The notes beneath the pieces were generated by a model, which did not search any database, was not told where the DNA came from, and saw nothing but the letters and a program-made list of their open reading frames with translations. DNA of 36,092 nt from the NCBI GenBank assembly GCA_030696505.1, contig JAUYSD010000198.1, positions 1 to 36,092 on the forward strand, written 5' to 3'. Shown here in pieces: positions 19,126-36,066 of the stretch (positions are counted from its first letter, which is position 1; each line of letters opens with the position of its first letter). The stretch comes from Sulfuritalea sp. (lineage in GTDB: Bacteria > Pseudomonadota > Gammaproteobacteria > Burkholderiales > Rhodocyclaceae). The position numbers and the translations under genes are program-made.

Positions 19126-20445
19126 ATGAGCAAGCAGGATTTGGCGGGCAGCGGCCTGGAACCGATTGAGAAGGCAAGCCGGGACGAACTGCAGGCACTG
19201 CAGTTGCAGCGCATGCAGTGGTCGCTCAAGCACGCCTACGACAACGTACCGCACTATCGCAAGAAGTACGACGCCGCCGGGGTGCACCCGAACGACCTCA
19301 AGCAGTTGTCGGACCTGGCGAAGTTTCCCTTCACCACCAAGCTCGACCTGCGCGACACCTATCCTTACGGCATGTTCGCGACACCGATGAGGGACGTGGT
19401 GCGCGTGCACGCCTCGTCCGGCACCACCGGCAAGCCGACGGTGGTCGGCTACACCGCGCAGGACATCGCGATGTGGGCGCAACTGATGGCGCGTTCGCTG
19501 CGTGCCGCCGGATGTTCGGCCGACGACATCATCCTCAACTCATACGGCTACGGCCTGTTCACCGGCGGTCTCGGCGCGCATTATGGCGGCGAGTGCCTGG
19601 GGGCGACGGTGATCCCGATGTCCGGCGGGCAGACCGAAAAACAGGTGCAGTTGATTCAGGACTTCAAGCCCACCGTGATCATGGCGACGCCCTCCTATGT
19701 GCTGACGATCGCCGACGAGATGATCAAGCAGGGGCTCAATCCCAGGGAAACCAGCCTGCGCGTCGGCGTCTTCGGCGCCGAGCCGTGGACCAACGAAATG
19801 CGGCGCGAGATCGAGGAGCGCCTCAACATCCAGGCCATCGACATCTACGGCCTGTCCGAAGTCATGGGTCCGGGCGTGGCCTGCGAGTGTGCCGAAACCA
19901 AGGACGGTCCGACGATCTGGGAAGACCATTTCTATCCGGAAATCATCAATCCGGAAACCGGCGAGGTGCTGCCCGACGGTGAAATGGGCGAACTGGTGTT
20001 CACCTCCCTGTCGAAGCAAGCCCTGCCCATCCTGCGCTATCGCACGCGCGACCTGACCCGGCTGTTGCCGGGCACGGCCCGCACCATGCGCCGCATGGAG
20101 AAGATCACCGGCCGCAGCGACGACATGCTGATCATCCGTGGCGTGAACGTGTTTCCGACGCAGATCGAGGAAATCCTGCTCAAGAACCCCAATCTTTGCG
20201 CCCAGTATCAGTTGCAGGTGTCGCGCGAAGGCCACCTCGACCAGCTGGACGTCTATGTCGAGGTCCGTGCCGACCTTTCCGACTCGATCGGCGAGGCCAG
20301 GCGTCGGGAAATCGGCGCCGACGTGAAACACCATATCAAGGCGCTGGTCGGCGTCTCTGCGGATGTCCATGTCGTGGAAACCGATAAGGTCGAAAGAACC
20401 TTGGTAGGAAAGGCCCGCCGGGTGATCGATCGGCGGCCCAAATAG
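19126..20445 (+). CDS. padJ: Phenylacetate-CoA ligase (AMP-forming)
   Basis: VRVHASSGTTGKPTVVGYT, YGLSEVMGPGVACEC, YRTRDLTRLLPG, GRSDDMLIIRGVNVFPTQIEE. Confidence 0.93.
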   Translation: MSKQDLAGSGLEPIEKASRDELQALQLQRMQWSLKHAYDNVPHYRKKYDAAGVHPNDLKQLSDLAKFPFTTKLDLRDTYPYGMFATPMRDVVRVHASSGTTGKPTVVGYTAQDIAMWAQLMARSLRAAGCSADDIILNSYGYGLFTGGLGAHYGGECLGATVIPMSGGQTEKQVQLIQDFKPTVIMATPSYVLTIADEMIKQGLNPRETSLRVGVFGAEPWTNEMRREIEERLNIQAIDIYGLSEVMGPGVACECAETKDGPTIWEDHFYPEIINPETGEVLPDGEMGELVFTSLSKQALPILRYRTRDLTRLLPGTARTMRRMEKITGRSDDMLIIRGVNVFPTQIEEILLKNPNLCAQYQLQVSREGHLDQLDVYVEVRADLSDSIGEARRREIGADVKHHIKALVGVSADVHVVETDKVERTLVGKARRVIDRRPK

Positions 20446-20511
20446 CCGCTTTCAGTCTATTATCCCCAGCGCAATTGATGTATTATTCTTCGCGACGCAC
20501 CGGGGCAACGA

Positions 20512-20525
20512 TGCACTATAGTGCG
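20512..20525. promoter_or_regulatory. Putative BoxR/BzdR operator upstream of TRAP operon
   Basis: TGCACTATAGTGCG; central 12-bp perfect palindrome GCACTATAGTGC; one mismatch from TGCA-N6-TGCA. Confidence 0.6.
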
Positions 20526-20677
20526 TATTTGTGCCAAATGGATTCAGGAAGCTTATTTCTCGATAGGGGAGATCGATAGGCTTCGGCAACATTCGGCATA
20601 AGGGATGTTTGGTTTTTTTGTAGTACCCATGTTATTTCAATAAGGCGTTTTGTTAGCCAACCAAAGAGGAGATGCAG

Positions 20678-21709
20678 ATGAAGAAGCTACTGGCAAAAAC
20701 CCTGGTCGCCGCATCGATTGCCGGCACCGCGCTGGCAGTCCAGGCCCAGGAAGTCACACTGAAGGTGCATCACTTTCTTTCGCCGACGACGTTTATCCAG
20801 GTAGGCGTATTCGAGCCCTGGTGCGCAAAGTTGGCCAAGGAATCCAACAACCGGATCAAGTGCCAGATCTACCCGGCGATGCAACTCGGCGGCACCCCGC
20901 CGCAACTCTTCGACCAGGCCAAGGATGGCGTCGCCGACGTGGTGTGGACGGTGCTCGGCTACTCCGCGAATCGCTTCCCGATGTCGGAAGTGTTCGAACT
21001 GCCCTTCATGATGACCAATGCCGAGGCTACCAGCCGCGCTGCATGGGACTTCTATCAACAGTATTCCAAGCATGAGTTCAAGGACGTTCATCTGCTTGCC
21101 ATGCATGTCCATGGCCCCGGCTATTTGTTCACCACCAAGAAGCAGATGAAGGTCATGGGCGATTTCAAGGGCATGAAGTTCCGTGCACCGACGCGCCTGA
21201 CCAACAAGATGCTCGCCATGCTGGGTGCCACGCCGGTCGGCATGCCGGTGCCGGCGGTTCCCGAGGCGCTGTCCAAGGGCGTGATCGAAGGCGCCGTGAT
21301 TCCTTACCAGGTCGTGCCCAGCATCAAGGTCAACGAGCTGGCCAAGTTCGCGGCCGAGACCGATCCGAAGTACAACGCGCTCTACACGACGGTGTTCGCC
21401 ATCGCCATGAACAAGGCCAAGTACGACTCGTTGCCGGCTGACCTGAAGAAGGTCATCGACAATAATTCGGGTCAGGAGTTCTCTGCCATGGCTGGCCGCG
21501 TGCAGGAAGCCGACGACGGCCCGGGACGCGAAAAGGTCAAGGCCTCCGGCGTCACGATCAACGTGATCCCCGCCGCGGAACTCGACAAGTGGAAGAAGGC
21601 GACCGACAGCCTTGACGACGAATGGGCCGCCAACGTCACCAAGCTGGGTCACGACGGTCCGAAGACGCTGCAAGCCGCCCGCGACCTGATCAAGAAGTAC
21701 ACCAAGTAA
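20678..21709 (+). CDS. dctP: TRAP transporter periplasmic solute-binding protein DctP family
   Basis: Signal peptide MKKLLAKTLVAASIAGTALAVQAQ, GVADVVWTVLGY, FRAPTRLTNKML; AGAGGA RBS. Confidence 0.92.
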   Translation: MKKLLAKTLVAASIAGTALAVQAQEVTLKVHHFLSPTTFIQVGVFEPWCAKLAKESNNRIKCQIYPAMQLGGTPPQLFDQAKDGVADVVWTVLGYSANRFPMSEVFELPFMMTNAEATSRAAWDFYQQYSKHEFKDVHLLAMHVHGPGYLFTTKKQMKVMGDFKGMKFRAPTRLTNKMLAMLGATPVGMPVPAVPEALSKGVIEGAVIPYQVVPSIKVNELAKFAAETDPKYNALYTTVFAIAMNKAKYDSLPADLKKVIDNNSGQEFSAMAGRVQEADDGPGREKVKASGVTINVIPAAELDKWKKATDSLDDEWAANVTKLGHDGPKTLQAARDLIKKYTK

Positions 21710-21811
21710 AGATAGACGCGGTCCTGCCGGGTGCCGACCTGTGTCGGCGCCCGGCATTCTCGCCAGCGGATTTGCATCGCTGGTGATGTTTTCCCAAACC
21801 AGGAGAAAGTA

Positions 21812-22336
21812 ATGGCGGACGCCATTTTTGTTGACTCCGATGCGCGCCCTAAGGCCCTTGTCGGCAGGGTTTTGAATGCGTGCTGTCGCTTCTTTGCGAT
21901 CTGCGCCGGCATCATGCTGATTTTGATGGCACTGATGTCGCTGACCAGCATCGTCGGTCGCTCGCTGTTCGACAAGCCCATCCTCGGCGACTACGAGCTG
22001 GTACAGATGATGTCGGCCGTTGCCGTGACGATGTCGCTGCCCTTTTGCCAAATGATCCGCGGTCACATCATTGTCGATTTCTTCACCGTCAGCCTGCCGG
22101 CCAAGGTCAATAGGGTATTCGACGTGATTGCTTCCCTGATATTGGCCGTTGCCGCATTTGTCTTTGCCTGGCGCATCAGCCTGGGCATGCTCGAACTGCG
22201 CGAAAACGGCGATGCTTCGATGTTGTTGAATCTGCCGACCTGGTGGGGTTACGCGCCTATGGTGCCGTCCTTCTTCCTGCTTGGCTGCGCCGCACTGTAC
22301 ACGGCCTGGATCGATCTGACGGGAGCGCGTGCATGA
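21812..22336 (+). CDS. dctQ: TRAP transporter small permease DctQ
   Basis: Four hydrophobic helices, GRSLFDKPILGDYELVQM; between dctP and dctM. Confidence 0.9.
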   Translation: MADAIFVDSDARPKALVGRVLNACCRFFAICAGIMLILMALMSLTSIVGRSLFDKPILGDYELVQMMSAVAVTMSLPFCQMIRGHIIVDFFTVSLPAKVNRVFDVIASLILAVAAFVFAWRISLGMLELRENGDASMLLNLPTWWGYAPMVPSFFLLGCAALYTAWIDLTGARA

Positions 22337-23649
22337 CCGGCATCGAACAGGGAATGGTGATCGGTGGCCTGATGCTGCTGTTGATGGCCTTGCGCGTGCA
22401 CATCGCGATGGCCATGCTGCTGGCGGGTTCCGTCGGTTACATGTGGATCGCCGGCCCGGCAACCCTGCTGAACTACATGAAGACGGCGGCCTGGGCGCGT
22501 TACTCGATCTACGATCTTTCGGTGGTGCCGCTGTTCCTGCTGATGGGGCAGTTTGCAACTCACGGCGGACTTTCCAAGGCCCTGTTTCGCGCCGGCAATG
22601 CCTTTATCGGCCACTGGCGTGGCGGCATGGCCATGGCTGCGGTCGGTGCCTGCGCCGGCTTCGGCGCCATCTGCGGTTCCTCGCTGGCGACCGCCGCGAC
22701 CATGGGCCAGGTGGCATTGCCCGAACTGCGCAACCACAAGTACTCGGGACGTCTGGCGACGGCAGCCCTGGCCGCCGGCGGTACGCTGGGCATCCTGATC
22801 CCGCCGTCGGTGCCGCTGGTGATCTACGCCATCCTGACCGAACAGAATATCGCCAAGCTGTTCGTCGCCGCCGTGATTCCCGGCCTCATCGCAATGGCCG
22901 GCTACATGCTGGTGATCGCGATTTCCGCGCGCGTGGATCCGACCGCCGCGCCCGCCGGGGAGCGGTCCACCTGGGCGGAAAGACTGGTCGCGCTGATTGA
23001 AACCTGGCCGGTTCTCGTGATCTTCGCGGCCGTGATCGGCGGCATTTACGGCGGCTTCTTCACGCCCACCGAGGCGGCGTCGATAGGCGCATTGGCCACC
23101 GGCTACGTCGCCTGGAAATCCGGCGGCTTGCGCAAGCACGGATTCCTCGAATGCGTTTACGGCACTGCGCAGGCCACCGCCATGATTTTCCTGATCCTGC
23201 TCGGCGCGGACATCATGAACGTGTTCCTGGCGCTGACGCAGATGCCGGCCGAACTCTCCAAGTGGGTCGTCGGCCTGGGTTACTCGCCGTTGCTGATCCT
23301 GCTGGTCATCATCTGCATCTACATCCTGCTCGGCTGCATCATGGACAGCCTTTCGATGATCCTGCTCACCGTGCCAATCTTCTTTCCCATCGTCATGGGT
23401 CTGGACTACTGGGGCATGGACATGGAGTCCAAGGCGATCTGGTTCGGCATCCTTTCCCTGATGGCGGTCGAAATAGGCATGATCACCCCGCCGGTGGGCC
23501 TCAACGTGTTCATCATCAGCAGCATGGCCAAGGACACGTCGATGAAAGAGACTTTCAAGGGTATCGTGCCCTTTCTTTTGTCCGATCTGATGCGAATCGC
23601 GTTGCTGGTCTTTGTGCCGGCAGTCGCATTGATTGCGCTGAAGTTCTAG
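22333..23649 (+). CDS. dctM: TRAP transporter large permease DctM
   Basis: GFGAICGSSLATAATMGQVALPELR, LGILIPPSVPLVIYAILTEQ, GGFFTPTEAASIGAL; ATGA overlap with dctQ. Confidence 0.95.
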   Translation: MTGIEQGMVIGGLMLLLMALRVHIAMAMLLAGSVGYMWIAGPATLLNYMKTAAWARYSIYDLSVVPLFLLMGQFATHGGLSKALFRAGNAFIGHWRGGMAMAAVGACAGFGAICGSSLATAATMGQVALPELRNHKYSGRLATAALAAGGTLGILIPPSVPLVIYAILTEQNIAKLFVAAVIPGLIAMAGYMLVIAISARVDPTAAPAGERSTWAERLVALIETWPVLVIFAAVIGGIYGGFFTPTEAASIGALATGYVAWKSGGLRKHGFLECVYGTAQATAMIFLILLGADIMNVFLALTQMPAELSKWVVGLGYSPLLILLVIICIYILLGCIMDSLSMILLTVPIFFPIVMGLDYWGMDMESKAIWFGILSLMAVEIGMITPPVGLNVFIISSMAKDTSMKETFKGIVPFLLSDLMRIALLVFVPAVALIALKF

Positions 23650-23812: not shown

Positions 23813-25846
23813 ATGCTGATTTTTGGACCCGCCAAGGCGATCATGGATCGCCTGCCGTACAAGCAGAAGTTCGCCTTGATGGGCGGCCTCAGTGCGATCG
23901 CGATCGCCCTCCTGCTGGTGCGCCTGATCGCCATGACCAACACCACCATCGGCCAGGCGACCAATGAACTGACCGGATTGAAGCTGCTGAAGCCGGCACT
24001 CGAAGCCAAGCAACTTATCGAGCAGCATCGCGCGCTGACCACACTGGCACTGGCTAGCAAGGAGTCGGCCGATGCGTCGGCAAAGCAGGCCGTGGCGATC
24101 GAAGCCGAGGTTGCGGACAAGCTGCAGAAGCTGGAGGTCGCGGTCGCCGGCGAGGCAAGCAAGCTGAAACTCGACAAGGCGCTGGAGCAGGTCAAGATCA
24201 CCTGGACGGCGGCAGCGGGTCCGAACTGGAAAGACAAGCCGCCCACGCTGAACCTGAATACCCACGCCGCCGCTCTTGCCGCGATCAACCAACTGATACG
24301 AGACACCGCGGACGAAAGCCAACTGGTGGCAGATTCCTCGCTCGATACGCTGTATATCGTGTCGGCGTCGGTGCTGCAGTTGCCGGCCATGCTCGACCAG
24401 CTTTCGCGCATCCGCGACGTCGGCACCGAAGTGTTGTTGCGCGGCAAGCCCAACGATGGCGAGCGCGCCCAGTTCTCGAAATGGATGGGGGCCGTCGAGG
24501 AGACCCGCAACAGCGTCCTCATCAGCCTGAAGCGGGCGGCGCAGAACAACCCGGACATCGTCCAGGAACTGAAGGGAGTCGAGGCCAATGTCGACAAGAA
24601 CTTCGGCATCATCACGGCCATGGCCGAGGGCAACCTGCTGGCCGATCCCTATGTCACGGGCGATGCCCTTTCCGAATCCGGACAGGAAGCCACCAGCGGG
24701 CTGTTCGCCGAGCTGACCAAGACCATGCTGCCGCTGGCCGAACGCCTGGTGGAAAAGCGCCTGGCCAGTTTGCGCATCGGCATCTACCTCAGCATGAGCG
24801 TGGTTGCGGTCGCCGTGCTGTTGTACCTCTATCTCAGCGTGGGTGCCTATCTCGCGGTGATGGGCGGGGTGCGTTCATTGTCGGCAACGGTGCTGCGCAT
24901 CGGCGAAGGCGATCTGAGCGGCAGCGCAAACCTGGAGTCCAGGGACGAACTGGCGGCCGTGGCAGTCAGTGTCAACAAAATGATTTCGCAGATGCGCGAG
25001 CTGATCCACGGCATCAAGGATACGGCGGACCGCGTCAAGCAGTCGGCGCAGGCGCTGCTTGCGTCCTCGCAACATCTGGCCACGGCGACCGGCGAACAGA
25101 ACGATGCCACCGCCAGCATGGCGGCAACCATGGAAGAAACCACCACCAGCATCGCCGAGATCAGCCGTGGCACCCGTGAGGCGCTTGCCGTGTCGGCCGA
25201 TTCGGGGAAATTGTCGGTTCGCGGCGGCGAGGTTATATCGCAGACCGTGATCGAGATCGAAGCGATTTCGGGCGCGGTAACCAGCTCGGCGCAGGCGGTC
25301 GACGAACTTGGGCAACTGTCGTCGAGGATCACGGGCATCGTCCAGGTCATACGCGAGATTGCCGACCAGACCAACCTGCTGGCCCTGAATGCGGCCATCG
25401 AGGCAGCGCGGGCGGGCGACAGCGGTCGCGGTTTTGCCGTGGTCGCCGATGAAGTGCGCAAGCTCGCCGAGCGGACCGCCAACTCGACCCAGGAAATTGC
25501 CACCATGGTCAGCGCCATCCAGAGCGGAACCCAGGGTGCCGTGGAACGCATGGAGTCCGGCGTCAAGCGCGTCCAGCATGGGGTCGAGCTGACGCGCGAG
25601 GCCGGTCAGACCATGGCGCGGATTCAGGAAGGCGCCACGCGTGTGGCCCAGCGTATCAACGAGATTTCCCTGGCCATGAACGAGCAGGACAGCGCCAGCC
25701 AGGAGATCGCCCGCAACGTCGAGCTCATCGCCCAGCGTGCCGGCGAGAATTCCATGGTGGTCAACGAGGCCACCGCGACCGCCGGTCAGCTGGACAATCT
25801 CGCCGGCCAGCTCAGTGCCATGGTCAGCCGCTTCCGGCTTTCCTGA
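23813..25846 (+). CDS. Methyl-accepting chemotaxis protein with large helical periplasmic sensor domain
   Basis: Two TM segments, HAMP-like region, [49 protein letters not shown] signalling hairpin. Confidence 0.95.
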
Positions 25847-25931: not shown

Positions 25932-27182
25932 TCAATAGGTTTCGACGTGGTAGCGGCCCTGCTGCAACAGCGCTGCCTGCAGGGTTTTCCAGGCTAGCCC
26001 GTGGTTGCCGCAGACCTCGCTGATGGCGGCGTCGACGCCTTGCTCCATGCCCTTGAGGCCGCATAGATACAAGTAGGTGTTCTCGTCCTGCAGCAGGCGC
26101 ACGACTTCGTCGGCGCGGGCGCGAATCAGGTCCTGGACGTACTGCCGGGGCCGGTCGGGGACGCGCGAAAACGCCAGGTTGATGTCGATGAAGTCCTTCG
26201 GCAGCCGCGTCAGCGGACCGAAATAGGGCAGTTCGTCGGGCGTGCGGGCACCGAAGAACAGCATCAGCTTGCCGTCCTCGGCCGGGACCGATTTCCGCCG
26301 CCGGCGTTCGGTCATTGCGCGCATCGGCGCGGAACCGGTGCCGGTGCAGATCATCAGCAGATTGCTGCCCGCGTGATTCGGCATCAGGAAGCTGGTGCCG
26401 TAGGGGCCGACGACATTGACCTGGTCGCCCTTCTTCAGGTCGCAGAGGAAATTCGATGCCACGCCGCGCACCGCGGCGCCTTCGTGGTCGGCGGTGACCC
26501 GCTTCACCGTCAGCGACAGGTTGTTGTAGCGCGGCCTTTCGCCGTCGCGCGGGCTGGCCACCGAATAAAGGCGCACGTGATGCGGTCGGCCGTTGGCATC
26601 GAGCCCCGGCGCCAGGATGCCGATGGTCTGGCCTTCGAGCACCGGAAACGAGGCATTGCCGAAGTCGAGCACGATGTGACGGATGTCGCTCGACGCGTCC
26701 TCGGCCGTCAGGCGGAAGTTGCCGCTGACCGTGGCCACCGCGGGCTTCTGGATCGAGTAGAGATTGACGTAGGGGTGGGCGGCCGACCACGGCGGCGGCG
26801 CGATGCCGCCCTGTCCCGCGGTAGAGGCCGCGGCGATCTTCGCCACGTCGTCGGGCAGCGCCGCCGTATCGCCAGCACCAACTCCTGTGCTCTCGTCGAG
26901 CGCGACCTGGGCGGGCAGGGTGTCCCACAGCAGTTGCTCGGCGATCGGGTAGGCCAGGTCGGCGCGCATGTTGCGCCAGCTGTCGATGGCGCCGGTCGGG
27001 CAGGGCGAGATGCAGTCGTAGCAGTAATTGCACTTCGCCGCGTCGACCACGTAGTTGCGCGAGTCGTGGCTGATCGCATCGACCGGACAGGTTTCCTCGC
27101 AGGTGTTGCAGCGGATGCAGATTTCGGGATCGATCAGGTGCTGGCGCATGATCGTCACCGGCGTTGTCGAAGCCGTGCTCAT
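25932..27182 (-). CDS. boxA: BoxA, reductase component of benzoyl-CoA 2,3-epoxidase
   Basis: Ferredoxin [16 protein letters not shown] and [16 protein letters not shown], then FNR-type FAD/NAD domain ([36 protein letters not shown]). Confidence 0.93.
26863..26887 (+). repeat. Dispersed 25-bp repeat copy E inside boxA
   Basis: GCCGTATCGCCAGCACCAACTCCTG; in boxA frame encodes GVGAGDTA in the inter-domain linker. Confidence 0.65.
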
Positions 27183-27284
27183 AGGGATTCCCTTCGTTCA
27201 GTCCGCTTCGTCAGTTGACGGAGAACCGTCGCGCGCGGAGCGCAAGCCGCTGCGGCCCGCACGCGAAAGATTAGCGCAAATCGA

Positions 27285-28709
<1,425 letters not shown>

Positions 28710-28741
28710 GGCATTCTCCTGTGTGATTTCCGATGGGCGCG

Positions 28742-30412
<1,671 letters not shown>

Positions 30413-30440
30413 TCGCTTCTCCTTGATTTTAAGTGGCTGT

Positions 30441-30467
30441 TTCAGGTGATTCGGGTGATTCAGGTGG
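30441..30467. repeat. Three tandem 9-bp repeats spanning the boxR stop codon
   Basis: TTCAGGTGA TTCGGGTGA TTCAGGTGG. Confidence 0.75.
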
Positions 30468-31428
30468 TAATGGCTTGGTGCAACTGGACGAGACAGTCTT
30501 CCGGCCTCCGACCGGTGGTGTCGAGTGTGAAATCGGCTTTGGAGTACAGCGGCTCGCGCGCGACGAGGATGCGGCGCATGTCTTCCATTGCCTCGGTATT
30601 GCCTTCCATGGGACGGAAATCGCCCTGGGCGACGACGCGCGACATGTGTTCTTCCGGCGTCGCTTTCACCCAGACGGTGAAACAATTCATCAGCAGCAGA
30701 TTGAAGGTTTCGGCTTCGGAAACAATGCCGCCGCCGACGGTGATGACGGCACTTTCGTGCTGGGCGATGAAACTCTCGAGACAGCGCCGCTCCAGGCGGC
30801 GAAACCCGGGCTGGCCGTAGAGCATGAACACTTCGTTGAGGCTCATGCCGGCCTCGGCCTCGATGGCGCTGTTGAGTTCGACGAAGGGCAGGGCAAGTTC
30901 GCTGGCGAGCGCACGGCCAAGCGTCGACTTGCCGGCACCGCGCAAGCCGACCAGGGCAATGCGCTTGCGGCGCGAGGCGTCTTCGTTGCCGAAATCGCGC
31001 ATCAGGCGCAGCAAGGCCTCTTCGAGGCGATTGGGCGAGAGTTGTTCGAGGAAGCGCGAAATCAGCCGGTACTCCGGCGAACTCTGCTGCGGCTCCAGCA
31101 GCTCGACCAGGGATATTCCAAGGGCATGGGCGACATGGCGCAGGACCATGATCGAGGGGTTGGTTTCGCCGCTCTCCACCTGCGCCAGATAACGCTCCGA
31201 GACATTCGAGCTCTGCGCCAGCGACTTGCGCGACATGCCGCGCCGCGCGCGCGACTCGCGGACGCGGATTCCCAGCGATTGTATGAACTCTGTGTCCGCC
31301 GCCTCATCAAAGAAGCGCATGGCGCCAAGCATTTCGGTCTTATCGGTCGATTGCATCTTTGTCAGCCCAGTGATTTCGGTCTGGTGAACACGAAGCGGAT
31401 TCTCGAGGGCAGCAAACGCCTGCTTCAT
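30460..31428 (-). CDS. boxR: BoxR/BzdR-family regulator: XRE-type HTH fused to shikimate kinase-like domain
   Basis: HTH RVRESRARRGMSRKSLAQSSNVSERYLAQVESGETNPS; Walker A GLRGAGKSTLG in shikimate-kinase-like C-terminal domain. A start at MQSTDK or further in is possible. Confidence 0.93.
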   Translation of the reverse strand: MKQAFAALENPLRVHQTEITGLTKMQSTDKTEMLGAMRFFDEAADTEFIQSLGIRVRESRARRGMSRKSLAQSSNVSERYLAQVESGETNPSIMVLRHVAHALGISLVELLEPQQSSPEYRLISRFLEQLSPNRLEEALLRLMRDFGNEDASRRKRIALVGLRGAGKSTLGRALASELALPFVELNSAIEAEAGMSLNEVFMLYGQPGFRRLERRCLESFIAQHESAVITVGGGIVSEAETFNLLLMNCFTVWVKATPEEHMSRVVAQGDFRPMEGNTEAMEDMRRILVAREPLYSKADFTLDTTGRRPEDCLVQLHQAITT

Positions 31429-31472
31429 TGGCGTTACCGCAGAGGCCGCAGCCGGAACAACGTTCAGGTAGG

Positions 31473-31486
31473 TGCACTATAGTACA
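31473..31486. promoter_or_regulatory. Putative BoxR/BzdR operator in boxR/bzdN divergent region
   Basis: TGCACTATAGTACA; shares an 11-nt core (TGCACTATAGT) with the site upstream of dctP. Confidence 0.65.
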
Positions 31487-31615
31487 TACTCCAGGGCAAT
31501 GTAAAAATAATTTTTTAAACCTAATGTAAAAGCAGGTAATAAAGTTTTACAAGGTATTGAAAATAAAGGACAGACACTCTGTTCTGAGGAGTAGGAAAAA
31601 TATTGCATGGGGCTA

Positions 31616-31644
31616 TTGACGAGATGGTCTTTTTATCTCATACT
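31616..31644 (+). promoter_or_regulatory. Candidate sigma70-like promoter for bzdN
   Basis: TTGACG-N17-CATACT. Confidence 0.4.
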
Positions 31645-31657
31645 CCGCTCCGGAATG

Positions 31658-31671
31658 TGCAGTATGGTTCA
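31658..31671. promoter_or_regulatory. Weaker BoxR/BzdR-like site near predicted +1 of bzdN
   Basis: TGCA-GTATGG-TTCA, just after the candidate -10. Confidence 0.35.
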
Positions 31672-31754
31672 GTGATGGAACAATAGTTCCAAATCCACTA
31701 ATAGAACGGCGCGTCCGGAGCACGATGTGATGGATCGCCAAAAAGGAGGCACAA

Positions 31755-32894
31755 ATGGCTGATGGTTTGTTCGACCAGTTCAAGGGCTGGTATGAGAATC
31801 GCCACGACTACGCACGCGACTGGAAGCAGCGCACCGGTGGGCAGGTTGTGGCTACGATGTGTACCTATACTGCGGAGGAATTGCTGATCGCTTGCGGCAT
31901 GCTGCCGGTGCGCGTACTCGGTGCACATGAACCGCAAAACGTGACCGAGCCGCATATCTTCGGCATGTTCTGTCCCTTCTGCCGCGATTCGCTGGCCCAG
32001 GGCCTGCTCGGCCGCTACGATTACTGCCAGGGCGTTACCCTGACGCAGTCCTGCATCCAGTATCGGCAGACCTTCAGTTCCTGGCGCAGCAATGTGCCGA
32101 CCGTGGAATGGGACTACTACGTGGCGATGCCCAACGAAGTCCAGTCGGCGCATGCACGCAAGGCTCACTACAACGAACTCCAGTCCTTCCGCACTTTCCT
32201 CCAGGCCCTGACCGGCAAGGAGCTGACCGACGACATGCTCAGGGAAGCATTGGCCGTGGTCGACGAAAACCGCCGCCTGTTGCGCGAGCTGTTCGAGTAC
32301 CGCAAGGTCGCCAATCCGCAGGTGACCGGCTGCGAAGCGCTCTACGCCTCGATTACCGCGCAGTTTGTGGACAAGCGCGAGCATAACGAGATGTTGAAGA
32401 AGGTCCTTGCCGCACTGCCTACCCGTCAGTTGAATCGTCCCGAAGGCGTGCGTTTCATGACCATCGGTTCGGAAAACGACGACCTCGCTTTCATGAACAT
32501 GGTCGAGTCGGTCGGATCGACCATCGTGATCGACGATCAGTGTTCCGGCACCCGCTACTTCTGGAACGAGTCGAAGCCCGAGGACGATGTGATCAAGGCG
32601 ATCGCCGATCGCTACTGCGACCGTCCGGCCTGCCCGACCAAGGATTACCCGGCCCACACGCGCTTCGACCATGTGCTGGGTCTGGCCAAGGATTACAACG
32701 CGCGCGCCGCGATCTTCCTGCAGCAGAAGTTCTGCGATCCGCACGAGGGCGACTATCCTGACCTGAAGGCGCACCTTGAGAGCAACGGTATCCCGACGCT
32801 GTTCCTGGAATTCGACATTACCAATCCGATCGGCCCCTTCCGCATCCGTATCGAGGCATTCCTCGAGACGATGAGCGACGAAGAGCTGTTCTAG
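31755..32894 (+). CDS. bzdN: Benzoyl-CoA reductase subunit BzdN (BcrC-like, 2-hydroxyacyl-CoA dehydratase family)
   Basis: 379 aa [56 protein letters not shown]...; RBS AAAAAGGAGG. Confidence 0.93.
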
Positions 32895-32910
32895 ACCAAG
32901 GGGGAAGCAG

Positions 32911-34221
32911 ATGAATGCACCGAACAAGTATCCGACCGAATCCCTCAAGCTGTGGGGCAAGGCCAAGCAACTGCGCGAGCAGTACTACCAGAACTATGCG
33001 CGCGCCAAGGACAACGGCGGCCTGCGCTGGTCGGGCTCGGCCTGGGCGCTGGATGCCCTGCCGGCCGGCCTCGGCGACGACGTCTATTCGCTGACCGGCG
33101 AGCCCTACGCGGCGGCTGTCGCGCACGACAAGAAGTTCGCCAAGGAATGCATGGACGCCGCCGAGTCGGTGGGCTTTGCCCGCGACCTGTGCTCCTACAT
33201 GCGTATCTACTGGGGCGGCATGCACCTCGACAAATACCTGTATGGCGGCAAGTTCCCCAAGCCCGACTTCATTTTCCAGACGCAGATCTGCTGTTCCCAC
33301 TCCAAGTGGTACCAGCACGTCGCCAAGGAAGAGCAGGTGCCGCAGTTCTACGTCGACGTCGGCGTCGGTCCCTACAAGGACATGAACGCGGCGCGCCTCG
33401 ACTACGTCACCAATCAGTTGCACGACAGCATCGAGTTCATGGAAAAGGCCACGGGCCGCAAGTTCGACGATGAGAAGTTCATCAAGGCGGTCAAGAACGA
33501 AATGCGCTCGACCAGCCGCTGGGCCGATATCTGCGCCCTGAACAAGGTCAAGCCGGCGCCGCTCGACGAAAAGACCATGTACTCGCTGTATGTATTGGCG
33601 ACCTTGTCGAAGTCCTCGCAGTGGTGTGCCGACTTCTACGACGAGCTCTACGACGAGGTCAAGGATCGCGTCGCGCGCGGCATCGCCGCCGTGCCGAATG
33701 AGAAGTGCCGCATGATGTCGGACACGCAGCCGCCCTGGTCCTTCCTCAAGATCTTCCGCTATCTGGAAACCTACGGCGCGGTGTCGATCGGTTCCTTGTA
33801 CACCTTCGCCCTCGAAGGCATCTGGGAAGACAAGCCGGACGGCAGCTGGGGCGGCCGCTCCCTGCCCTGGGAAAACGGTGTCGAAATGAATGACCGCGAC
33901 ACGGTGCTGCGCCTCTACGCCGACTGGAATCTGTCCAAGCCGCAGTGGCAGCACTTCTTCGATCCGCGCCTGAAGACCGCCATGATGCTGCGCATCATCA
34001 AGGAATGGCAGGTCGACGGCGTCATGCTGCACCTGAATCGCGGCTGCGAAGGCCTCAGCCTGGGCATCATGGAAAACCGCGGCGGCATCGCCAAGGCCGG
34101 CGTGCCGATCATGACCTTCGAAGGCAACATGGGTGACGAGCGCGAGTTCGACGAAGTGCGCACGCAGGCACGGGTCGACGCCTTCATGGAACAGCTCGGT
34201 CTGCGTCGCCAGGCTGCCTGA
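32911..34221 (+). CDS. bzdO: Benzoyl-CoA reductase subunit BzdO (BcrB-like)
   Basis: 436 aa [55 protein letters not shown]... Confidence 0.93.
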
Positions 34222-34251
34222 TCTAATCGAGAGCAAAAAGGAGGAATTACG

Positions 34252-35061
34252 ATGATTACCGCTGGAATCGATATGGGCTCGCGCAGCATCAAGGTGGTGC
34301 TGCTTGAGGAACTCAAGGTGGACGGTGCGCCGCAACTCAAATACGGCGTGAAGAAGGTGCACATCATGATGCCGGGCGACCTGGATCAGGACGTGGCGGC
34401 CGACAAGGCCTACGACGAGACCCTGGCTGCCGCCGGGCTAAAGCGTGACGATGTCAAGGTGGTGTTCGCCACCGGCGCCGGACGCAAGCAGGTGGGTTTC
34501 GCCACCGAAGGCATCACGGAAATGACCGCCGGGGCCAAGGGCGCGGTATTCATGTACCCGCAGGCGCGCACCGTGGTCGATGTCGGTGCCGAAGAGGGCC
34601 GTGGCATGAAGACCGACGCCGAAGGCCGCGCGATCGACTTTGCCGGCAACGAGAAATGTGCCGCCGGTGCCGGGTCTTTTGCCGAAGCCATGTCGCGTGC
34701 GCTGCAAATGACGCTCAAGGAATTCGGCGAGGCCAGTCTGCAGTCCGACAAGTCGATCCCGATGAACGCCCAATGCACGGTGTTCGCCGAGTCCGAAGTG
34801 GTCTCGCTGATCCATTCCTCGACGCCGAAGAACGACATCGCCAAGGCCGTGCTCGATGCCGTCGCCAGCCGCGTCTGCGCCATGGTGCGCCGTGTCGGCA
34901 TCGAAGGTGAAGTGGTGCTGATCGGCGGCATGGTGCATAACGCCGGCTTCGTCCAGTCGCTGAAGGTGGCGATGGGCGTCGATGCGATTTCCCTGCCTGA
35001 CATGCCCGAGTACATCAGCGCGCTGGGTTGCGCGATGATTGCCGCCGAGCGTCAGCACTGA
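34252..35061 (+). CDS. bzdP: Benzoyl-CoA reductase ATPase subunit BzdP (BadF/BadG/BcrA/D family)
   Basis: GIDMGSRSIKVVLLEE phosphate loop, NEKCAAGAGSF, IGGMVHNAG. Confidence 0.92.
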   Translation: MITAGIDMGSRSIKVVLLEELKVDGAPQLKYGVKKVHIMMPGDLDQDVAADKAYDETLAAAGLKRDDVKVVFATGAGRKQVGFATEGITEMTAGAKGAVFMYPQARTVVDVGAEEGRGMKTDAEGRAIDFAGNEKCAAGAGSFAEAMSRALQMTLKEFGEASLQSDKSIPMNAQCTVFAESEVVSLIHSSTPKNDIAKAVLDAVASRVCAMVRRVGIEGEVVLIGGMVHNAGFVQSLKVAMGVDAISLPDMPEYISALGCAMIAAERQH

Positions 35062-35072
35062 TGAAACCCCTG

Positions 35073-35115
35073 CGTAGCGGGCGGGCCAGCAAGAGACGCT
35101 GACCTCGCCGCTACG
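35073..35115. other. Intercistronic stem-loop between bzdP and bzdQ
   Basis: CGTAGCGG-gcg-GGcCAGC-aagagac-GCTGaCC-tcg-CCGCTACG; long imperfect hairpin. Confidence 0.55.
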
Positions 35116-35145
35116 GATGAACCCATACGGACAAGGAGCGAGAAC

Positions 35146-36066
35146 ATGAATGCAGAAGTGACAGCAGCCCCCGCGGTTGCCGAAACGGTCCCGGAGAAGA
35201 AGGAATTCTGGCGTTGGCAGGAAAATACCTGGGTCGATGAGACCAAGGACTGGAAGACGGCCAAGATCATCACCTGCGGTATCGATGTCGGTTCGGTATC
35301 GTCGCAGGCGGTGCTGGTGGTCGACGGCGAACTCTACGGCTTCAACAGCATGCGCACCGGCAACAATTCGCCGGATTCCGCCACCAATGCGCTGCAAGGC
35401 GTGATGGACAAGTGCGGCATGAAGCTCGAAGACATCCACTACGTGGTCGGCACCGGCTACGGCCGGGTCAACGTGCCCTTCGCCCACAAGGCCATCACCG
35501 AGATCGCCTGCCATGCCCGCGGCGCCAACTACATGGGCGGCAACGGCGTGCGCACCATTCTCGACATGGGCGGCCAGGACTGCAAGGCCATCCACTGCGA
35601 TGAAAAAGGCAAGGTCACCAACTTCCTGATGAACGACAAGTGCGCGGCTGGCACCGGTCGCGGCATGGAAGTGATTTCCGACCTGATGCAGATCCCGATC
35701 GCCGAACTCGGTCCGCGTTCCTTCGACGTCGATGTCGAGCCGGCCGCCGTTTCGTCGGTCTGCGTGGTGTTCGCCAAGTCCGAGGCGCTGGGCCTGCTCA
35801 AGGCCGGCTACACCAAGAACAAGGTGATCGCGGCGTATTGCCAGGCGATGGCCGAGCGCGTAGTGTCCCTGCTGGAGCGCATCGGCGTCGAGGAAGGCTT
35901 CTTCATCACCGGCGGCATCGCCAAGAACCCGGGCGTCGTCAAGCGCATCGAAAGGATCCTCGGCATCAAGGCGATGGAGACCAAGGTCGACAGCCAGATC
36001 GCCGGCGCCCTGGGCGCCGCGCTGTTCGGTTACACGCTGATGTCGAAGAAGGCTGCTGCGGCCTGA
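35146..36066 (+). CDS. bzdQ: Benzoyl-CoA reductase ATPase subunit BzdQ (BadF/BadG/BcrA/D family)
   Basis: CGIDVGSVSSQAVLVVDGEL, LDMGGQDCKAI, NDKCAAGTGRGMEVI, TGGIAKNPGVV. Confidence 0.93.
   Translation: MNAEVTAAPAVAETVPEKKEFWRWQENTWVDETKDWKTAKIITCGIDVGSVSSQAVLVVDGELYGFNSMRTGNNSPDSATNALQGVMDKCGMKLEDIHYVVGTGYGRVNVPFAHKAITEIACHARGANYMGGNGVRTILDMGGQDCKAIHCDEKGKVTNFLMNDKCAAGTGRGMEVISDLMQIPIAELGPRSFDVDVEPAAVSSVCVVFAKSEALGLLKAGYTKNKVIAAYCQAMAERVVSLLERIGVEEGFFITGGIAKNPGVVKRIERILGIKAMETKVDSQIAGALGAALFGYTLMSKKAAAA

Follow-up and report, generated by a model that had tools for sequence, protein, structure and literature searches.

In a Sulfuritalea sp. genome (assembly GCA_030696505.1) the TRAP transporter operon dctPQM stands between genes for the degradation of phenylacetate and of benzoyl-CoA, which raises two questions: which regulator controls it, and which acid does it carry? 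The window, i.e. the whole stretch of DNA analysed (36,092 nucleotides), holds from left to right paaX (minus strand), fdhD, the pad cluster (headed by paaX) and dctPQM, then a gene for a methyl-accepting chemotaxis protein, boxA, boxB, boxC and boxR (all on the minus strand), and finally bzdNOPQ. The pad cluster includes padEFGHI, for the phenylglyoxylate dehydrogenase subunits, and ends with the phenylacetate-CoA ligase gene padJ/paaK (19126–20445, plus strand; TIGR02155 over cut-off). boxA, boxB and boxC (25932–30430, minus strand; TIGR03224, TIGR03225 and TIGR03222 over cut-off) specify the aerobic benzoyl-CoA epoxidase pathway, and bzdNOPQ (31755–36066, plus strand; TIGR03190, TIGR03191, CoA_E_activ and TIGR03192 over cut-off) the benzoyl-CoA reductase. 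The methyl-accepting chemotaxis protein (23813–25846) occupies the dctM-boxA interval, as in loci L008–L010, and none was detected at this position in L011–L031; it may be a sensor of the transported acid.

The gap between padJ (end 20445) and dctP (start 20672) is 226 bp long and contains a palindrome, O1 (ATGCACTATAGTGCGT, 20511–20526), with a single mismatch to the published BoxR/BzdR consensus ATGCACTATAGTGCAT. Its 14-mer TGCACTATAGTGCG (20512–20525, plus strand) lies 146 bp 5' of the dctP ATG at 20672, and positions 20513–20524 form the perfect 12-bp palindrome GCACTATAGTGC already pointed out in a sequence-only reading of this DNA. That reading had named a TGCA-N6-TGCA pattern for the BoxR/BzdR family. 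The pattern agrees with the motif obtained through phylogenetic footprinting by Suvorova and Gelfand in 2019, whose sites are usually multiple (PMC6449761); O1 matches this motif at 15 of 16 bases, its half-sites being TGCA and TGCG. An O1-type site with two mismatches to the consensus (GTGCACTATAGTACAT, 31472–31487) lies between boxR and bzdN, its 14-mer TGCACTATAGTACA at 31473–31486. The two sites are identical over their first 11 bases, in line with the earlier claim.

A search of the 4.45-Mb genome with at most one mismatch to TGCACTATAGTRCR returns O1 and the boxR/bzdN site and nothing else, the reversed-pattern control giving 0, although a few operator sites could be absent from this count because the assembly is 90% complete and divided into 398 contigs. 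The same two sites, and no other, appear with up to two mismatches to the 16-bp consensus. This is well above the level of chance.

The putative regulator is encoded by boxR (30460–31356, minus strand), placed between boxC and bzdN, an arrangement conserved in congeners. The open frame reaches 31428 but is over-extended, since aligned homologues start at about Met25, i.e. at 31356. The protein carries an N-terminal XRE helix-turn-helix and a C-terminal shikimate-kinase-like domain (HTH_3 and SKI), the domain order of BoxR/BzdR, and scores 402 bits, over cut-off, against PRK08154 (“anaerobic benzoate catabolism transcriptional regulator”). It is the sole full-length member of its family in the genome, and BoxR is present in 28 of 31 congeneric genomes. 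In Azoarcus, repression by BzdR and BoxR is lifted by benzoyl-CoA (PMC4424350). In genomes G003 and G178 (loci L170 and L203) a second, divergent BoxR paralogue (55% identity) adjoins boxC; it lies some 2 kb away from the first and is preceded by several motif-like sites.

The boxR-bzdN gap has further conserved elements. Behind a bzdN promoter, TTGACG-17-CATACT, come GTGCAGTATGGTTCAG and then a perfect palindrome, GGAACAATAGTTCC (31613–31690 in all). These last two, candidate bzdN operators at 31657–31690, are conserved in congeners and have five mismatches to the consensus; they may be BoxR sites of lower strength or belong to another regulator. An FNR-like sequence, TTTGATnnnnGTCAA, is kept in this gap in many relatives (L105, L106, L099, L101, L107, L014 and L031) and is degenerate in the window, near 31488–31502.

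Is O1 maintained in front of dctP in other genomes? A dctP orthologue occurs in 19 of the 31 genomes of the genus, and in 16 of these 19 O1 is found, with at most three mismatches, 53–220 bp before dctP; it was not found upstream of the other three orthologues (L154, L155 and L160). A weight matrix built solely from the boxR sites of congeners also recovered O1 at dctP in those 16 (p≤0.0011 against shuffles), 15 of these matches being at the p floor of 0.0003. When the upstream regions are aligned, conservation peaks at O1 and at a second element, O2, while the remaining intergenic sequence drifts. The best-kept part of O1 is its dctP-proximal half, TATAGTGCA; against its conservation, several relatives show variation in the left half. 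In the closed congeneric genome G095 there are just two sites, one at boxR and one, a perfect consensus, in front of dctP, and the gene order is that of the window (paaX-pad-dctPQM-box-boxR-bzd).

For a wider upstream comparison, 80 dctP homologues were taken from genome contigs. O1 precedes the closest orthologues, most of which bear the label Sulfuritalea or Rhodocyclales; it was not found in front of the distant homologues among these 80. Nor was it found directly upstream of two close orthologues outside the genus, L024 and L026, which stand in a bzd and a bclA setting respectively. The 26 related genomes scanned, which hold dctP relatives, contain 24 sites with at most two mismatches, against a single one for the reversed pattern, and 19 of the 24 are at boxR (11) or at dctP (8).

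O2 (ATGTATTATTCTTC, 20478–20491, plus strand) starts 33 bp upstream of O1. A block of the form ATGnAnTATTnTTC is kept in most congeners, where it starts 33–34 bp (in one case 29) upstream of O1, and a similar block is conserved in their boxR-bzdN gaps; in the window the latter is ATGCAATATTTTTC (31595–31608, minus strand). The pattern has exactly two copies in the genome, at these two places, but since it was defined after both had been seen, this count is supportive rather than independent. A cleaner test is given by a matrix trained on the boxR-side copies of O2 only, which yields p values of mostly 0.0003–0.0034 at dctP. BoxR/BzdR operators usually occur as several sites, a number of helical turns apart. 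O2 itself, with 7 mismatches in the window, is a poor fit to the BoxR palindrome; it may serve BoxR as an auxiliary site or else be a promoter element.

Could O1 nevertheless be a chance palindrome, or the site of a regulator unrelated to BoxR? It contains TATAGT, which resembles a -10 box, and in 151 genomes of the family the forward motif with at most two mismatches occurs 37 times against 12 for the reversed control, not far above background, so that outside this setting the motif alone is no proof. Such an origin is very improbable all the same in view of the restriction of O1 to two loci in the genome, its maintenance upstream of dctP in congeners, its co-occurrence with O2 and its agreement with an independently published motif. 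We are therefore confident that O1 is a genuine operator of the genome's single BoxR/BzdR-type repressor; the motif match, the exclusiveness in the genome, the pairing with O2 and the conservation, all read from DNA sequence, together make control of dctPQM by BoxR very likely.

From which promoter would the operon be transcribed? In the padJ-dctP gap of the window, a consensus sigma-70 promoter for dctP was looked for and not found; no terminator was found there either, so that read-through from padJ is possible. At L027 O2 is preceded, at a distance of about 70 bp, by the end of a GC hairpin with a T run that looks like a terminator; the dctPQM transcript of that locus must thus start downstream of the hairpin, near O2 and O1, i.e. 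from a promoter of its own. The dctP leader is conserved (20635–20671 in the window: AATAAGGC, a short loop, GCC, then AACCAAAGAGGAGA). It resembles a small hairpin immediately ahead of the ribosome-binding site, and some of the differences between congeners are paired.

The operon encodes the complete set of TRAP subunits: the solute-binding protein DctP, of the aromatic-acid type (20672–21709, plus strand; Pfam DctP, 3e-45), the small permease DctQ (21731–22336, plus strand; Pfam DctQ, 3e-21) and the large permease DctM (open frame 22243–23649, plus strand; TIGR00786 over cut-off), whose true start is probably near the end of dctQ. The AlphaFold model of DctP is confident (mean pLDDT 89). 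The nearest structures are 5IM2 (Rfer_2570), its best PDB match (53% identity) and one that may contain benzoate, then metagenome proteins titled “specific for aromatic acid ligands”, then TarP, with coumarate, cinnamate, caffeate, ferulate and 4-hydroxyphenylacetate as ligands. The model lies within 1.0–1.7 Å rmsd of the nearest aromatic-acid proteins, at 38–53% identity. As DctP is closest to solved TRAP proteins that bind aromatic acids, an aromatic monocarboxylate is its likely substrate, and going by sequence and model dctPQM very probably carries aromatic acids. The best-matched proteins bind several such acids, however, so the specificity of DctP cannot be read from them. The earlier proposal that the system imports benzoate or a related aromatic acid is thus supported in part: an aromatic acid is likely, and benzoate and phenylacetate are both candidates.

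The sequence-only reading had also presented the TRAP system as taking the place of an ABC or MFS transporter. This part has to be given up. On contig C211 of the same genome, bclA stands next to a branched-chain-type ABC cassette, a type for which benzoate is the substrate usually suggested (PMC6449761). The TRAP system thus comes on top of it. In close relatives the bclA-type cassette belongs to the bzd operon, where it follows the bzd genes and bclA in the same orientation. An AAHS-type MFS transporter over cut-off was not found in the genome. In the congeners L027 (88–5429) and L023 (1–4219) the place of pad directly upstream of dctP is taken by another ABC transporter of the branched-chain type, distinct from the bclA-type cassette and equipped with a binding protein of its own, which may be a further aromatic-acid importer. 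L023 had been considered as a case of dctP beside the bclA-type cassette, an assignment dropped as its ABC genes are only about 30–35% identical to that cassette.

The neighbourhoods of dctP point to two acids: phenylacetate within the genus, benzoate at L024 and L026. dctPQM follows the pad cluster in 17 of 19 congeners, and of the 24 closest loci retrieved 15 have padJ in front of it, which suggests that it could carry phenylacetate, or phenylglyoxylate, for the pad enzymes. Its transcription would then come from two sources: read-through of the pad operon, which PaaX and phenylacetyl-CoA probably control, and a BoxR-controlled internal promoter sensing the end product of the pathway. The padJ-dctP gap of the window, in which no terminator was found, suits this scheme, as do the binding of 4-hydroxyphenylacetate by TarP_Rhp and the presence of an ABC system that may already serve benzoate. 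It is also favoured by the pad promoter itself, which paaX adjoins and which has no BoxR site in six congeners; control of that promoter by BoxR was rejected on this ground.

The reading of dctPQM as a phenylacetate importer meets difficulties outside the genus, where orthologues of 82–84% identity lie behind bzd genes (L024) or beside bclA (L026), with no pad genes on the same stretch, and at L027, which keeps the operator and dctPQM though pad is not adjacent; nor do the broad ligand ranges of the nearest solved proteins single out phenylacetate. We hold it as a tentative reading, well worth considering but short of probable. The same loci speak for benzoate, of which dctPQM would be a second, high-affinity importer beside the ABC system, and so do the predicted control by BoxR and the lack of an AAHS-type transporter. 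On the other side, bclA is already accompanied by its ABC cassette and pad is the usual neighbour of dctPQM within the genus. Import of benzoate is accordingly a possibility that we take seriously without regarding it as the probable answer.

Returning to control by BoxR, which we prefer whichever acid is carried, the following sequence of events can be proposed. BoxR, whose gene stands between the box and bzd operons at a distance of 11 kb, would in its ligand-free form bind the palindrome O1 and thereby repress dctPQM; O2, some three helical turns upstream, would probably assist the binding. Benzoyl-CoA, to which both the activation of benzoate and the pad pathway from phenylacetate lead, would release BoxR, if the ligand known from the Azoarcus work applies here, and dctPQM would be switched on together with box and bzd. 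The TRAP system would then import an aromatic monocarboxylate (benzoate, phenylacetate or both), adding to the ABC transporter beside bclA; read-through from the pad operon may bring extra transcription.

PaaX responds to phenylacetyl-CoA (PMC4424350), and a split control can be imagined in which the pad enzymes follow phenylacetyl-CoA via PaaX while the adjacent transporter follows benzoyl-CoA via BoxR. We regard this as rather doubtful. If true, the uptake of phenylacetate would be licensed by the flux through the downstream benzoyl-CoA pathway, aerobic or anaerobic.

The predicted control would tie aromatic-acid uptake to the benzoyl-CoA signal in Sulfuritalea-like bacteria of groundwater and sediment, which keep an aerobic route (box) next to anaerobic ones (bzd, pad), all under a single regulator. 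The locus also offers a well-defined promoter and a binding protein for direct tests.

How does this locus compare with known systems? It shares with the betaproteobacterial BoxR/BzdR regulons the motif and the boxR-boxCBA layout. Those regulons usually have more than one site, and an ABC transporter or benK is often co-regulated (PMC6449761); here, by contrast, a TRAP operon beside a pad cluster has its own predicted operator. The word “TRAP” is absent from the text of that 32-genome study (PMC6449761), relative to which this class of transporter would be new to the BoxR regulon. Like BzdR at the PN promoter of Azoarcus sp. CIB, where an XRE and shikimate-kinase-like repressor acts on bzdN with benzoyl-CoA as inducer (PMC4424350), the regulator described here has a place next to bzdN. 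Azoarcus/Aromatoleum, however, have BoxR and BzdR as two separate regulators, while here a single one stands between box and bzd, with dctPQM as an additional predicted target. Lastly, the DctP model closely resembles the binding proteins of TarPQM-type TRAP systems (7NR2, 7NRA, 7NSW, 7NQG; 5I5P/5I7I; 5IM2), but its setting is benzoyl-CoA and pad metabolism, while that of Rhodopseudomonas palustris is a lignin-monomer cluster.
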